A DNA stretch of 64,000 bases from Alphaproteobacteria bacterium (lineage in GTDB: Bacteria; Pseudomonadota; Alphaproteobacteria; SMXP01). The translations under genes were made by a program, and so were the position numbers. This document shows positions 34,713 through 60,024 of the stretch, piece after piece (position 1 is the stretch's first letter; every line of letters starts with the position of its first letter). Below the pieces are notes generated by a model, which was not told the origin of the DNA, searched no databases, and saw nothing but the letters and a program-made list of their open reading frames with translations. The stretch is taken from NCBI GenBank assembly GCA_028285305.1, contig JANQPV010000013.1, positions 124,001 through 188,000 on the forward strand, read 5' to 3'.

Positions 34713-35978
34713 CTACGGGGCAAGGCCGGGAATGGGAAAACGCGTCGCCAGGGCCGAAACCTCTTGTGCGACGGGCCCCGGATCTTCGTTTCTTAAGATC
34801 TGAACAATAAGCGAGGCCAAAGTGGACATTTCCGATGGACCCATTCCCCGCGTGGTGACGGCAGGCGTGCCCAGACGGATACCGCTCGGCCGCAAGGGTG
34901 GACGTGGATCATCCGGGATCAATTGCTTGTTGGTGATGAGGCCGACTGCCTCCAGTTTCTTCTGGATCTCATCGCCGTCTGTGTTGAAACGATCGGCCAC
35001 ATCAAGGACCAGGAGATGGTTTTCCGTTCCGCCGGTGATCAAGGGTACGTCGAGGGACGACAAAGATTCCCCAAGCGTCGCCGCGTTTTGCACGACGTGC
35101 CGCGCATAAGCCCGAAACGGCTCCGTCATTGCTTTCCTAAGAGCAACGGCGATGCCCGCGACTTGGTGCATATGCGGACCACCCTGAAGGCCTGGAAAGA
35201 CGGCTGCGTCCACTTTCTTGGCCAGTTCACGGGTACAGACTATGAGTCCCCCGCGCGGCCCGCGCAGTGTTTTGTGTGTGGTCGTTGTCAGCACATCAAA
35301 GCCCGCTTCCATCGGATTCGCGAGAGCACCGCCCGCGATGAGGCCGCCAATGTGAGACACATCGGCCATCGTAAGAGCCCCGACCTCATCGGCAATGGCC
35401 TTGAACGCAGAATAGTCAAGCTCGCGAGGGTATGAGGAGTGTCCGCACAGCACCATTTTGGGCTCGTGCCGCCGAGTTAGTCGACGAACCTCATCGAGAT
35501 CGATGGTTCCCTCTGGGCCTTTGGTACGATAGCGGATGAAATTGAAAATTTTGCCCATGTGGGAGACGGGCGCACCGTGGGTCAAATGGCCGCCATGGGT
35601 CAGATCCATCGCCAGTATAGTGTCTCCCGGTTCAAGGAGTCCAAAATACACCGCCTGGTTCATAGGCGACCCGGAGAGCGGTTGGACGTTTGCATGATCA
35701 GCCCGGAAACACGTTCTCGCCCGCTCGATGGCGATGTTCTCTATTTCATCGTAGTACTGTTGTCCCGCGTAATAGCGCCGGCCGGGATAGCCCTCGGCAT
35801 ACTTATCGGTCAGGATCGACCCATTCGTCTCAAGAACTTCCGGATACGTATGGTTCTCAGATGCGATCAAGGTGAGCGTACGTGCTTGGCGTCCGATCTC
35901 TCCGCGGATCGCCTGGTGGATCTCTGGATCGAAAGACGGAAGGTCTGTGTGGTGAAGAGAGGGAAAGAACTCGTTCAT
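34713..35978 (-). CDS. Serine hydroxymethyltransferase family protein (divergent paralogue)
   Basis: A 421-residue PLP enzyme. It has the SHMT start (LTLIASENHTYPEVLETNGSILTDKYAEGYPGRRYYAG), the Lys motif TTTTHKTLRGPRGG, and ADVSHIGGLIAGG. Several normally strict segments differ: ANVQPLSGSPMN replaces ANVQPHSGAQAN, and CGHSSYPRELDY replaces AGxSAYxRxxDW. It may therefore be a second, specialised SHMT or aldolase, not the housekeeping GlyA. GGAGG five bases before ATG 35978. The amidase gene follows. Confidence 0.85.
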   Translation of the reverse strand: MNEFFPSLHHTDLPSFDPEIHQAIRGEIGRQARTLTLIASENHTYPEVLETNGSILTDKYAEGYPGRRYYAGQQYYDEIENIAIERARTCFRADHANVQPLSGSPMNQAVYFGLLEPGDTILAMDLTHGGHLTHGAPVSHMGKIFNFIRYRTKGPEGTIDLDEVRRLTRRHEPKMVLCGHSSYPRELDYSAFKAIADEVGALTMADVSHIGGLIAGGALANPMEAGFDVLTTTTHKTLRGPRGGLIVCTRELAKKVDAAVFPGLQGGPHMHQVAGIAVALRKAMTEPFRAYARHVVQNAATLGESLSSLDVPLITGGTENHLLVLDVADRFNTDGDEIQKKLEAVGLITNKQLIPDDPRPPLRPSGIRLGTPAVTTRGMGPSEMSTLASLIVQILRNEDPGPVAQEVSALATRFPIPGLAP

Positions 35979-36299
35979 ATGCGCCTCCAGGCATTAAGGG
36001 TTAACTTAAGTGCCCAGGCGCGCGGCTCAACGAGTGCAAACTTCCCGGTAGTGATCCCTACCTTTAGCGCCAGTCATTTGCAGTTTCACCATATCAAAGT
36101 TCAAGGGCTCGATCAATTTTTCGCATTCGGCCGAAGGTCGGCCCACGACTGAGCCGGCGATCCGCTTCATCACAAAACCGTAATTGCGTGTTGATTGGCC
36201 CTGATAAGGCTGGATTTGTATAGCGTTTTTAATCGACGATCCTTAAGCTCTTGCCGCTACAACGCGCGAGTGCAGAGAAGATCTAGGGGGCATGACTTC
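35979..36299. other. Intergenic region between divergent SHMT and CE15 genes
   Basis: A stretch of 321 bases without a supported gene. A stem-forming inverted repeat at 35990-36014 (GGCATTAAG...CTTAA-G-TGCC) lies just upstream of the SHMT start and could be an operator or leader hairpin. AT-rich TAATTGCGTG and GTATAGCG segments near 36180-36225 may hold the esterase promoter. An in-frame extension of the esterase gene back to 36195 lacks support. Confidence 0.45.
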
Positions 36300-56502: not shown

Positions 56503-57696
56503 ATGGTCATGGCGCTGGGCCGTATGTCCGCCTACATAGCTTTTGCCCTATTGGCCGGCGGCACGACGCTGGGGCTTGCTGGAATTGATCTGGTTCTGCC
56601 CGCCATCCCAGGGCTTCCCAACGCGATCGGCGGTAGCGCCGAGGCCGCCCAATTTGTGCTGGGCACCTATGCGATCGGCACCGCGATGGGTCTATTGCTC
56701 TTCGGCGAATTGGGGGCCAGATTTGACCACCGGAATCTGCTCGTCATCTCGATGGTTATGTTCGCCCTCTTGTCCGCTTTGGCCGCGTTCGCACCAACGA
56801 TGGAAGCGCTCATTGGGTTACGGTTCTTTCAAGGAGCAACTGGCGCCGCTCCCGCCGTATTTGCACCGGGGATGCTGCGCGCGCTGTTCCAAGACCGCCA
56901 AGCAATTCAGGCCATCGGACTCCTCGGGAGCATCGAGTCAATTGTTCCGGCAATCGCACCGATCGTGGGCTTGTGGCTGTTGTCCCTTTTTGGCTGGCAA
57001 AGCTCATTCCTATTTCTCTCTATGCTGTCAATTGTCTTGGTAGCAGTACTTTGGGGTCTGCGAGGGATCTTACCAACAACGGGGAATGGGTCAAAAGGCA
57101 CTGGCATTGGATACAGCTATCTTCGCCTTCTCAGGTATCCCACCTATCTAAGATATGCCTTGAGCCAAGCCTTCTCGCTCGGCGCTCTCCTGACATTTGT
57201 ATTTGGGGCGCCGGTCGTCATTGTATCATCTTTAGGCGGAACTCTTACTGACTTTGTTGTTATGCAAGTATCGGGGATCACCTTCTTTGTGATCGGCGCA
57301 AATGTGGCGGCGAGGCTAGCGGAACGCTTCGGCGCGGAACGTATGATTCTTTTCGGCTCAAGCCTATCTTGTGCCGGCGCAATAGCGTTGTCCGTGTTCG
57401 CGGTTGTGGGCTCGACAAATACAGCTCTACTGGCGGTCCTCTTTGTGCCCATGAATTTCGGATTTGGGCTCCGTGGCCCCGTTGGTTTTTTCCGTGCGGT
57501 CGTGGCCTCGAACGGGGACGAAGCGCGGGGATCAGCTTTGGTCATATTATCGGTGTTAATGACAACGGCGCTGGGAACTGCGATAGCCGCGCCGTTCATT
57601 ACCGACGGAATGGTCCCACTGACCTTGATCGTTGCTGTGATATCGAGCCTGTCGGTTGTCTTGCTGATTGTCTTGAAACCGATCGCACAAGATTAG
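56503..57696 (+). CDS. MFS transporter, Bcr/CflA-like drug/metabolite exporter
   Basis: A 397-residue protein with 12 predicted helices. GTYAIGTAMGLLLFGELGARFDHRNLLVISMVMFALLSALAAFAP holds the motif A loop in divergent form (ELGARFDHR), and FQGATGAAPAVFAPGMLRALF resembles motif C neighbourhoods of DHA1 exporters. It exports an unknown compound. It is convergent with the TauD-TPR-ATP-grasp gene, with only 15 bases between their stops. Start ATG 56503 or 56509. Confidence 0.86.
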   Translation: MVMALGRMSAYIAFALLAGGTTLGLAGIDLVLPAIPGLPNAIGGSAEAAQFVLGTYAIGTAMGLLLFGELGARFDHRNLLVISMVMFALLSALAAFAPTMEALIGLRFFQGATGAAPAVFAPGMLRALFQDRQAIQAIGLLGSIESIVPAIAPIVGLWLLSLFGWQSSFLFLSMLSIVLVAVLWGLRGILPTTGNGSKGTGIGYSYLRLLRYPTYLRYALSQAFSLGALLTFVFGAPVVIVSSLGGTLTDFVVMQVSGITFFVIGANVAARLAERFGAERMILFGSSLSCAGAIALSVFAVVGSTNTALLAVLFVPMNFGFGLRGPVGFFRAVVASNGDEARGSALVILSVLMTTALGTAIAAPFITDGMVPLTLIVAVISSLSVVLLIVLKPIAQD

Positions 57697-57711: not shown

Positions 57712-60024
57712 TTACTCTGCCAGGCGCTGCTTCAGCATAGATTTGAACGCAATTCGAATGTTCTCTATATGTGGTCTCACGTATGGAAAAGCATCCTCAG
57801 GGCGTGGCACCCGGTTCATGTCGGCATTCAGATCGAGTAGGTGAATGCCTTGACCCTCAGAGCTCAGCGCAAAGTCGATAACGAAACAGTCGAGCTTCAC
57901 GATATTCTTCATGGCCATCAGACCTCCAAAAGCATAACGGCCCATGAACGCATACGGATCTTCCAAATAGGCGCGTTCTTCGTTTTGCATCCAGGGGTTT
58001 TGTTCAATCAAAGAGGGGCGCACGCGCTCGTCTCCGAGCTGGTCCACATCGAACACACTTGCAATCGGATAGAAGTGGCCATCTATAAAGACCATGCGTA
58101 GGCGATTGTAAGCGCCTGAGCGATGGGCGGGATGGCGAAACTGAGAGATAAAGTGCGCGCTGTCTGTGGGTTGTTGCTCGAAGTAAGCGCTCAGTTGATC
58201 CTCGTTCTCGCAAATCCAACGCCTCTCACGTGAAGCCACGGGACGGACCAAGACGGGCCATTCAAACCCCTGCCCATAGAACGTCTTTAAGATTTGAACA
58301 AATCGATCGCGCGCCCATACCATGCGCTCAGTTCTCGGATAAGTAACGCCCTCTGCTCCTGCTAATCGTTGATAGAGGCGATTACGAGAGATATCCAACA
58401 GGGCGCGCGGGTGATTGATGACTGGAATAGCGGGAAACCGATCGGCGAACCGCGCAAGAGTCAGTAGAGAATCGGCCTCGGAATCCGCGTGTGTCGTAGC
58501 GTTCAAGATCAAATCGAAGTCAGGTGGATCGGCGTAGCCGTCCAGATCATCGGCGACGATATGTGCGTCGACAAAATTATACTCGCTGTCCTGAAGAAGG
58601 CGCGAGACGTCATGATCTCCGCCGTCACTTCGGCGTTCATATCTTCCTGCATCATTGCGCATGACCCGAAACCGGGCGCCTCGATAGCCCTTCGCGATCA
58701 GCAGCGTCGGCCGATCTGGGGTAAGGCAGGGACGCAGAACGAATGGATGCGCCAATAAGGTTTGTTCAAGCAACACCTGCGCTTCATCAAGATCTCCTTC
58801 TCGGTCAGATAGGCTCGAGAGCGAAAAGCCCGTCTCCAAATCATTCGGTTCGATCAAAAGGAATTGGCGGTAGGCGTTTTTTGCATCTTGAAATCTTCCC
58901 GTGGCCAGAAGAAGGTCGCCCAACCGTTGGAGAACCCGCTGGTAAGATGGATCGGTCTCGCATACGAGCGCATACTGACCGATCGCATCGTCAAGACGGT
59001 CAGCATCTTCGTAAAGACGCCCTAAGAGCATACGGGCGGCCAAATCGCGGGGGGCTTTCGCTAGGTGTGTGGAACAGAGCAGCAGGGCGTCGTCGAGCCG
59101 ATCATTCTCGATCAACAGCTCAATGAGTTTGTGATCGATTTCTTCCAAAGATCCGTTCCATTCCGGATCCGGCGCCTGCAGATCCGAATCTGACCGTGAG
59201 GGAGGCGATTCGGCTTGAAGCGGCGGCAAGCGGAGGCTTGGGGCTCGCATTCGGATGCGATACAGCAGTCGTCCGCTGTCTTTGGCGAATCCACTCCGTC
59301 CGTGCAATGCCTTTACGTTATTCACAAATAGGATGTCGCCCTGGCCAAGACGAAACTTGTGGCCGAGCGAAGCGTCTTTCAACACCGTATCCAGGGCTTT
59401 AAGCGCCCAACGATGCCGAAACGGCAATATGTGATCTCCCGTCTTCCCTGACTGCAAAAGCTCTGCATCAAAAAACCGCACGAGCGGGTCATGCGGTGGA
59501 CCACTGAGAATAGCTCTTCTTTCGTCACCAAACGGATAAGTACATTCGCGGAGCAGGCCGGCTTCCGTCTCTCCCAACTCGCGCAGAACATCGTCGATTG
59601 GTAGTATGATAGTCTCGCCGCCAACGGGATCGGCTTTCACACATTGAAACGCGACCAATTCATGAGGCGCTTTCATGTGCGTAGAATCTGTGTGGGGCAC
59701 GAGCGGCAAGTGCGTTTGACTCAGTCGAGACGCGATGTCGAGCGTATTCGCAGGATCGCTGGTTACCGACACCCGAGCAAGCGGAGCGCACTTCCCACTG
59801 CGGGAGTCCTTGAAGGAGTCCGTACCGAAGTGAGCCACCATCTTAGCTAACCGGGGAAGTGTATCGATATCGTCTGACTTTGATGGACACCGAATAACGC
59901 AAAAGTAGGGATAGTGAATCAGACAGCGGACAATCCGGCCCACATCGACAGCGCGGACAAGCTCCGTGTCGGTCGAGCTTGTATGAATGAGGGAATGAGG
60001 ACGTGCATCATGAGGCAAGTTCAT
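57712..60024 (-). CDS. Three-domain protein: TauD-like dioxygenase, TPR repeats, ATP-grasp-like domain
   Basis: A 770-residue protein. Residues 25-262 are a TauD/clavaminate-synthase-like Fe(II)/2-oxoglutarate oxygenase: HTD (111-113), GGETIILP, FVNNVKALHGRSGF with His241, and RLLYRIRM with the 2-OG Arg. Residues 295-425 are about four TPR units (AARMLLGRLYEDADRLDDAIGQYA). Residues 436-770 resemble an ATP-grasp ligase: VLVRPVASRERR, FVIDFALSSEGQGIHLLDLNADMNR near 725-750. I infer amino-acid or peptide hydroxylation coupled to ATP-dependent ligation. ATG 60024 has a weak ribosome site. The order of domains is unusual to me. Confidence 0.8.
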   Translation of the reverse strand: MNLPHDARPHSLIHTSSTDTELVRAVDVGRIVRCLIHYPYFCVIRCPSKSDDIDTLPRLAKMVAHFGTDSFKDSRSGKCAPLARVSVTSDPANTLDIASRLSQTHLPLVPHTDSTHMKAPHELVAFQCVKADPVGGETIILPIDDVLRELGETEAGLLRECTYPFGDERRAILSGPPHDPLVRFFDAELLQSGKTGDHILPFRHRWALKALDTVLKDASLGHKFRLGQGDILFVNNVKALHGRSGFAKDSGRLLYRIRMRAPSLRLPPLQAESPPSRSDSDLQAPDPEWNGSLEEIDHKLIELLIENDRLDDALLLCSTHLAKAPRDLAARMLLGRLYEDADRLDDAIGQYALVCETDPSYQRVLQRLGDLLLATGRFQDAKNAYRQFLLIEPNDLETGFSLSSLSDREGDLDEAQVLLEQTLLAHPFVLRPCLTPDRPTLLIAKGYRGARFRVMRNDAGRYERRSDGGDHDVSRLLQDSEYNFVDAHIVADDLDGYADPPDFDLILNATTHADSEADSLLTLARFADRFPAIPVINHPRALLDISRNRLYQRLAGAEGVTYPRTERMVWARDRFVQILKTFYGQGFEWPVLVRPVASRERRWICENEDQLSAYFEQQPTDSAHFISQFRHPAHRSGAYNRLRMVFIDGHFYPIASVFDVDQLGDERVRPSLIEQNPWMQNEERAYLEDPYAFMGRYAFGGLMAMKNIVKLDCFVIDFALSSEGQGIHLLDLNADMNRVPRPEDAFPYVRPHIENIRIAFKSMLKQRLAE

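Follow-up and report, generated by a model that had tools for sequence, protein, structure and literature searches.

Does the 770-codon frame at 57712 to 60024 of the window (the whole stretch of DNA analyzed here, 64 kb) encode a genuine three-part enzyme, and on what would such an enzyme act? The original prediction had read the frame as an oxygenase, a TPR array, and an ATP-grasp-like ligase in one polypeptide, making a dedicated modified peptide or amino acid that a convergent MFS transporter could export. We found that the architecture is genuine and recurs in other bacteria, that a second, better conserved copy in the same genome lies in an operon with an exporter and an aspartate-rich peptide, and that, of the two, the window copy holds less promise.

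Architecture and fold of the window gene

The frame reads without interruption through 770 codons from its ATG on the (−) strand, and ORF reading, Pfam matches, and structure models recovered all three of the anticipated parts:

57712..60024, (−): fused TauD-type oxygenase/TPR/ATP-grasp gene, a diverged paralogue (770 aa; open frame, domains, structure models, second genomic copy)
59230..60024, (−): N-domain, residues 1–265, Fe(II)/2-oxoglutarate (2OG) oxygenase (Pfam TauD, Foldseek, conserved columns)
58744..59133, (−): TPR array, residues 298–427, eight helices making four repeats (Pfam TPR models, helices in the model)
57715..58743, (−): C-domain, residues 428–770, ATP-grasp fold with an eroded ATP site (AlphaFold model, RimK match, residue comparison)

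Pfam TauD matched residues 96–257 of the window protein (E = 2.3e-15) with 57.7 bits against a cutoff of 27, which identifies a TauD/TfdA-type Fe(II)/2OG oxygenase. A comparison of conserved columns revealed that the N-domain keeps the expected HxD...H iron ligands (H111-x-D113 and H241) together with R252, R256, and R258; relative to the other fused members, 8 of 38 conserved columns in the TauD part are changed, with every ligand retained. In the full-length AlphaFold model, the TauD domain is followed by a disordered linker (residues 268–294), eight TPR helices (298–425), and the ATP-grasp domain, and the TPR matches lie above the Pfam cutoffs (TPR_16, E = 3e-11; TPR_19, E = 3.8e-10). The N-domain of this model resembles TmpA (Foldseek, 2e-10), VioC, KDO1, AsnO, and clavaminate synthase. 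It shares its fold and the HxD...H...R residues with TmpA, VioC, AsnO, and KDO1, but in the present family the oxygenase is fused to or lies beside a TPR-ATP-grasp protein, and its substrate is probably protein-bound.

The last ~340 residues are named by no Pfam or NCBIfam model. An AlphaFold2 model of residues 430–770, computed from an alignment of 74 homologues, reached a mean pLDDT of 88.7 and a pTM of 0.88, the fold being partly inherited from relatives because the family alignment was used. With this model, Foldseek returned 343 chains at E ≤ 0.001, ATP-grasp ligases matching over the whole length; the best match was D-Ala-D-Ala ligase (E = 3.5e-11), and the graspetide synthetase PsnB was also among the matches. 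A structural aligner gave Z scores of 18.6 for RimK, 17.6 for ArgX, and 16.7 for glutathione synthetase. As modeled, the C-domain is an ATP-grasp fold across its length, in agreement with the original prediction, for which structure prediction had been proposed as a check.

The RimK/LysX/ArgX/CofF group, whose known acceptors are acidic protein or peptide ends, has this fold in common with the window C-domain over the whole domain, as the RimK and ArgX scores indicate, and the E-x-N-x-x-M motif of the family aligns with LysX. The present family is nevertheless distinct from that group: TIGR00768 (rimK_fam) scored 17–29 bits (maximum 28.9) in three relatives against a cutoff of 143.4, which places them outside the RimK family, and no RimK family model was listed among the NCBIfam matches of the window protein. 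Moreover, the present family carries the TPR and often TauD, and the usual ATP-grasp Lys is replaced here by an invariant Arg (R594).

Family members and the second copy

A single-sequence search of genome contigs with the window protein gave no match; a search with the C-domain alignment found 80 loci. The same domain order, which was to be sought as a check on the fusion, occurs in a second gene of this genome (copy 2; 40% identity to the window protein, E = 1e-184) and in ~20 further full fusions in cyanobacteria and Proteobacteria, fused genes being present in Xenococcaceae, Nostocaceae, Rivularia, Mastigocoleus, Oculatellaceae, Thalassotalea, Luminiphilus, and other proteobacteria. At 13 loci, TauD and TPR-ATP-grasp are separate genes, most of these pairs lying side by side in the same orientation. 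The C-domain tree put fused and split members into one group of 34 rows with moderate support (83/79) and the TauD-less relatives outside it, and it left a long-branched Luminiphilus row unplaced. A tblastn search of plasmids with copy 2 found no member. Assembly error as the origin of the fusion was rejected in view of the second genomic copy, the fusions in other genera, and the 13 split pairs. The TauD-TPR-ATP-grasp proteins are a real, little-known, and uncharacterized family of bacterial enzymes; our literature search found no paper combining TauD, ATP-grasp, TPR, and fusion.

Two clades of TauD-less relatives have neighborhoods of their own:

L050, L056, L058, L059, L062, L063, L064: TauD-less TPR-ATP-grasp genes beside a LapG-like protease
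L035:1695-5097, L042, L044, L047-L049, L052, L053: TauD-less TPR-ATP-grasp genes of Kordiimonas relatives

In the first, a LapG-like protease, RTX proteins, and a 709-aa protein matching a phosphodiesterase-type response regulator adjoin the gene, an association that fits modification of exported adhesins. In the second, PEP mutase, phosphonopyruvate decarboxylase, and an aminotransferase adjoin it; this association suggests that different branches could use different amine partners, and a phosphonate-linked ligase is possible in these Kordiimonas relatives. The latter neighborhood also favors a quite different account of the family, in which a hydroxylated amino acid would be ligated to another to give a small-molecule product, the TPRs would serve protein-protein contacts, and the Asp-tract surface proteins nearby (described below) would be coincidental. 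The nearest solved relatives of the N-domain (VioC, KDO1, AsnO, and TmpA), which use free amino acids or small amines, point the same way. However, one operon holds peptide, exporter, and enzyme together, Asp tracts are strongly associated with the enzyme across unrelated carriers, and the first TauD-less clade adjoins a LapG-like protease and RTX proteins; we consider a small-molecule product improbable. Separately, two TPR-ATP-grasp-type genes were seen in tandem in three unrelated genomes (L070:363-4825; L073:8192-10861; L080:7455-10894).

The second copy lies outside the window and is the last gene of a four-gene operon:

L004:3377-3706 = C36:109377-109706, same strand as copy 2: repeat peptide (109-codon ORF)
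L004:1548-3299, same strand as copy 2: PrtD-type type I secretion ABC protein (above the NCBIfam cutoff)
L004:2-1573, same strand as copy 2: HlyD adaptor (above the NCBIfam cutoff)
C36:103670-105973, ~18 kb before the window start: copy 2, the second fused enzyme of the same genome

The order is peptide, ABC protein, HlyD adaptor, and enzyme, on one strand throughout, with 28 bases between the HlyD gene and copy 2. The peptide is built of GGDDDDDGGRGKK repeats, and its ORF, preceded by a Shine-Dalgarno-like AGGGAGA before the ATG, reads MARNAYWDYYGKGSGDDDDDDDSKSYWYRSGGDDDDDGGRGRKGGDDDDDGGRGRK...GGDDDDDGGD. Since other frames of the repeat are also open, codon positions were used to judge which frame is read: the repeat units differ 50 times at position 3, 14 times at position 1, and 5 times at position 2, a pattern that makes the Asp frame very probably the one translated. 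The operon has the makeup of a RiPP cluster (short ribosomal precursor, enzyme, and exporter), modification of the peptide being a prediction. The original interpretation is partly supported. Because the window ligase is without many family-conserved residues, the dedicated modified product first ascribed to the window gene fits the copy 2 operon better, and the modifying and export role in this genome is best assigned to copy 2 rather than to the window copy.

Aspartate tracts near TauD-linked members

We found GDDDDD 12 times in 0.52 Mb around the TauD-linked members (spread over 11 of the 34 loci, including one from a duplicate strain), where 0.18 occurrences were expected from a background of 60 in 168 Mb (the 29 genomes with TauD-linked members); around the TauD-less relatives, it occurred at 1 of 44 loci. 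The motif was defined after the first loci had been seen, which makes the enrichment partly post hoc, and the late choice of motif and the shared descent of the cyanobacterial proteins mean that these figures overstate independence. With the five cyanobacterial secreted carriers counted as one event, at least five unrelated protein families carry G-D5 tracts near TauD-linked members. The tract is absent within ~10 kb of two-thirds of the TauD-linked loci.

In this 5.4-Mb genome, GDDDDD occurs at nine sites, seven in the repeat peptide and one in a TadG-like protein, and eight of the nine are no more than 17 kb away from copy 2; the ninth (C69) was set aside as part of an unrelated protein (GDDDDDEEE). 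Of 372 sampled genomes of the class, only 3 contain the longer GDDDDDGG. We rejected two such matches in other genomes of the class (one a 21-codon open stretch, the other in a frame that may not code), and RTX-type repeat matches (L139, L050) and other acidic stretches (L142, L144) were not counted as supporting carriers.

The carriers are diverse. Peptides with GG-type leaders and Asp tracts adjoin fused members at L011 (SQIEGGWGDDDDDDGGGYYP), L019:8002-8244 (VSGGGGYGYGGGKGDDDDDGRKGRDDDDGGK), and L020:13694-13930 (LTGGGGYCGYGGYGDDDDDDDGGRGKGKKGRGKK), each ORF preceded by an AGGAGA-like site, and the L020 peptide adjoins an ABC protein whose N-terminus is of the C39 type as well as an HlyD gene. 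A search for short precursor peptides near homologues, advised at the outset, did yield candidates: some have GG-type leaders, and one adjoins an ABC exporter of the C39-peptidase type. Large secreted cyanobacterial proteins beside the enzyme carry one SGDDDDD loop each (L010, L013, L017, L018, L021), TAT-type proteins (L040) are also among the carriers, and two Tad pilus-type proteins, from two alphaproteobacteria, hold inserted tracts near TauD-ATP-grasp genes:

L032:6841-7494, (+): TadE-like protein with the inserted G-D5-GG tract GDDDDDGGKGKKGKG, near the Glycocaulis pair
L003:7339-8679, (−): TadG-like protein with inserted GGGDDDDDGGG, 10 kb from copy 2

The TAT-type Asp-rich protein of Thalassotalea adjoins an HPr-rel-A cassette, and a Kordiimonadaceae genome has a similar cassette on another contig. 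These cassettes (L040:11029-14079 and L159:7679-10614) comprise an HprK-related kinase A, a PqqD-like peptide chaperone, and a further conserved gene, and each adjoins a TAT-type protein with long Asp tracts. To our knowledge, no function has been assigned to the cassette, and a literature search on HprK-related/HPr-rel-A found nothing.

Several candidate substrates end in Gly-Asp (EGD at L011, YGD at L019, EGD at L020, GGD at L004, and NGD in the L043 protein). This ending may mark the C-terminus for the ligase.

Proposed chemistry and the state of the window copy

From the observed domains, fold, fusion, operon layout, Asp-tract association, and divergence, we infer a chemistry, a substrate, and a state for the window copy. 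Our preferred reading, to which we give about an even chance, is that the window gene is a diverged paralogue of TauD-TPR-RimK-like ATP-grasp enzymes that would modify the Asp tracts of exported substrates. Exported peptides and proteins with Asp runs recur beside the enzyme genes, so the enzyme probably modifies such runs; because the Asp run is the recurrent neighbor and these ligases join an amine to a carboxylate, we propose oxygenation together with amide formation. The TPR part would hold the exported peptide or protein while the oxygenase hydroxylates residues in or beside the Asp run (G-D5 or longer, often then GG and Lys/Arg), oxygenation falling on Asp or a nearby Lys. The ATP-grasp domain would activate an Asp side-chain or C-terminal carboxylate as an acyl phosphate and join it to an amine, either an external amino acid or a Lys of the same chain. 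Modification would precede export, the product leaving through a type I or C39-type ABC exporter. Alternatively, the Asp tracts could serve in metal binding or secretion and have nothing to do with the enzyme, and the literature searched reports no modification by such an enzyme. A related chemistry is that of cyanophycin synthetase (PMC9262961), an ATP-grasp enzyme that adds Arg to poly-Asp side chains. The action of an ATP-grasp on poly-Asp is one mechanism proposed here, the differences being that our family has no Mur-ligase partner domain and that its Asp run is ribosomally made.

The ligase could instead act as in graspetides, crosslinking tract Asp to Lys (or Ser/Thr/Tyr) within the same peptide, with the oxygenase hydroxylating the crosslinked region. 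The repeats GGDDDDDGGRGKK and GDDDDDDDGGRGKGKKGRGKK set Lys beside Asp runs, PsnB is among the Foldseek matches, a C39-type ABC exporter is present as at graspetide loci, and corallotide offers a precedent, its ATP-grasp making Lys-Asp isopeptides in five repeated motifs and its 2OG oxygenase hydroxylating Lys (PMC13097080). The corallotide proteins CorA-D resemble our system in pairing an ATP-grasp with a 2OG oxygenase and in having a large precursor whose repeated motifs contain Asp and Lys (PMC13097080), but they differ in that here a TPR is fused, Asp runs replace the KIVAD motifs, and large secreted proteins and pilus-type proteins are among the candidate substrates. In the model library used, which may not include every graspetide ligase model, none such matched at E ≤ 1. 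Nearby Lys is missing from several Asp-tract proteins (the TadG-like GGGDDDDDGGGDSDGYYD and some small secreted cyanobacterial proteins), which argues against one uniform isopeptide crosslink, and we therefore do not claim the same bond as in corallotide. In addition, the nearest NCBIfam matches are the RimK and CofF glutamate ligases, and fusion of the ligase to TPR and TauD is unreported in the graspetide literature searched. We regard the graspetide-like crosslink as rather unlikely.

Taken to its full extent, the preferred reading of Asp-tract modification would define a new protein-modifying class, in which Asp runs of exported peptides, adhesin-like proteins, and Tad pilus-type proteins are hydroxylated and then amidated to give a decorated, ribosomally made poly-Asp surface polymer with cyanophycin-like chemistry, the window copy being a duplicate with a degenerate ligase; we advance this broader version tentatively. 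If true, it would extend the known ways of modifying peptides and proteins by a fused oxygenase-ligase, with G-D5 as a recognizable mark of candidate substrates and with operons ready-made. The two paralogues of this genome, one well conserved and the other eroded, also offer a natural pair for asking which of the two halves of such an enzyme is required.

The window copy stands out from its relatives. Its C-domain is changed at 39 of the 78 columns conserved in the other fused members, compared with 1 of 78 in copy 2, and its end branch in the C-domain tree is 1.61 versus 0.49. It alone among 74 aligned members is without W662, G715, and E731 (Q, V, and D, respectively); G597, G601, K641, and H665 are also replaced, and the phosphate-loop glycines of GTQTG have become Ala and Arg. 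D717, N733, R594, and R643 are retained, and E731D is a conservative change. The check on ATP-binding residues thus came out divided, with D717 and N733 kept and E731 replaced by Asp, and with the phosphate-loop glycines and others lost. These replacements suggest a duplicate that has changed so strongly that its ligase part may have ceased to work; most likely, its oxygenase is active, its ligase is weakened or lost, and its substrate is unlinked. From the sequence, the ligase may be weakened, lost, or redirected, and given D717, N733, and E731D, the copy may be active on a different substrate. The intact 770-codon frame, the retained oxygenase ligands, and the four kept C-domain residues, with E731 merely Asp, would also suit a fully working enzyme of altered acceptor or amine specificity, an account that concerns the state of this copy and fits either chemistry. 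We think it unlikely in view of the three losses found in no other member, the Ala and Arg in the phosphate loop, and the 39 altered columns.

The surroundings of the window copy differ from those of its relatives:

56503..57696, (+): convergent MFS gene, a relative of Bcr/CflA-type drug-efflux proteins, judged not to belong (Pfam/NCBIfam)

The MFS gene was rejected as the product exporter, being of Bcr/CflA type, on the opposite strand, and not recurrent near relatives of the fused enzyme in the neighborhood comparison; the exporters linked to the family elsewhere are of the type I secretion or C39-type ABC kind, contrary to what had been suggested for it. None of the neighbor genes recurs near relatives, no G-D5 tract occurs anywhere in the window, and 56–62.5 kb contains no convincing small precursor ORF, so this copy, with no short precursor beside the enzyme, does not form a RiPP cluster. 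Elsewhere in the window, a ZTP riboswitch (36005-36087, (−)) immediately precedes the gene for a serine hydroxymethyltransferase (34713-35978, (−)), as is ordinary for this riboswitch.
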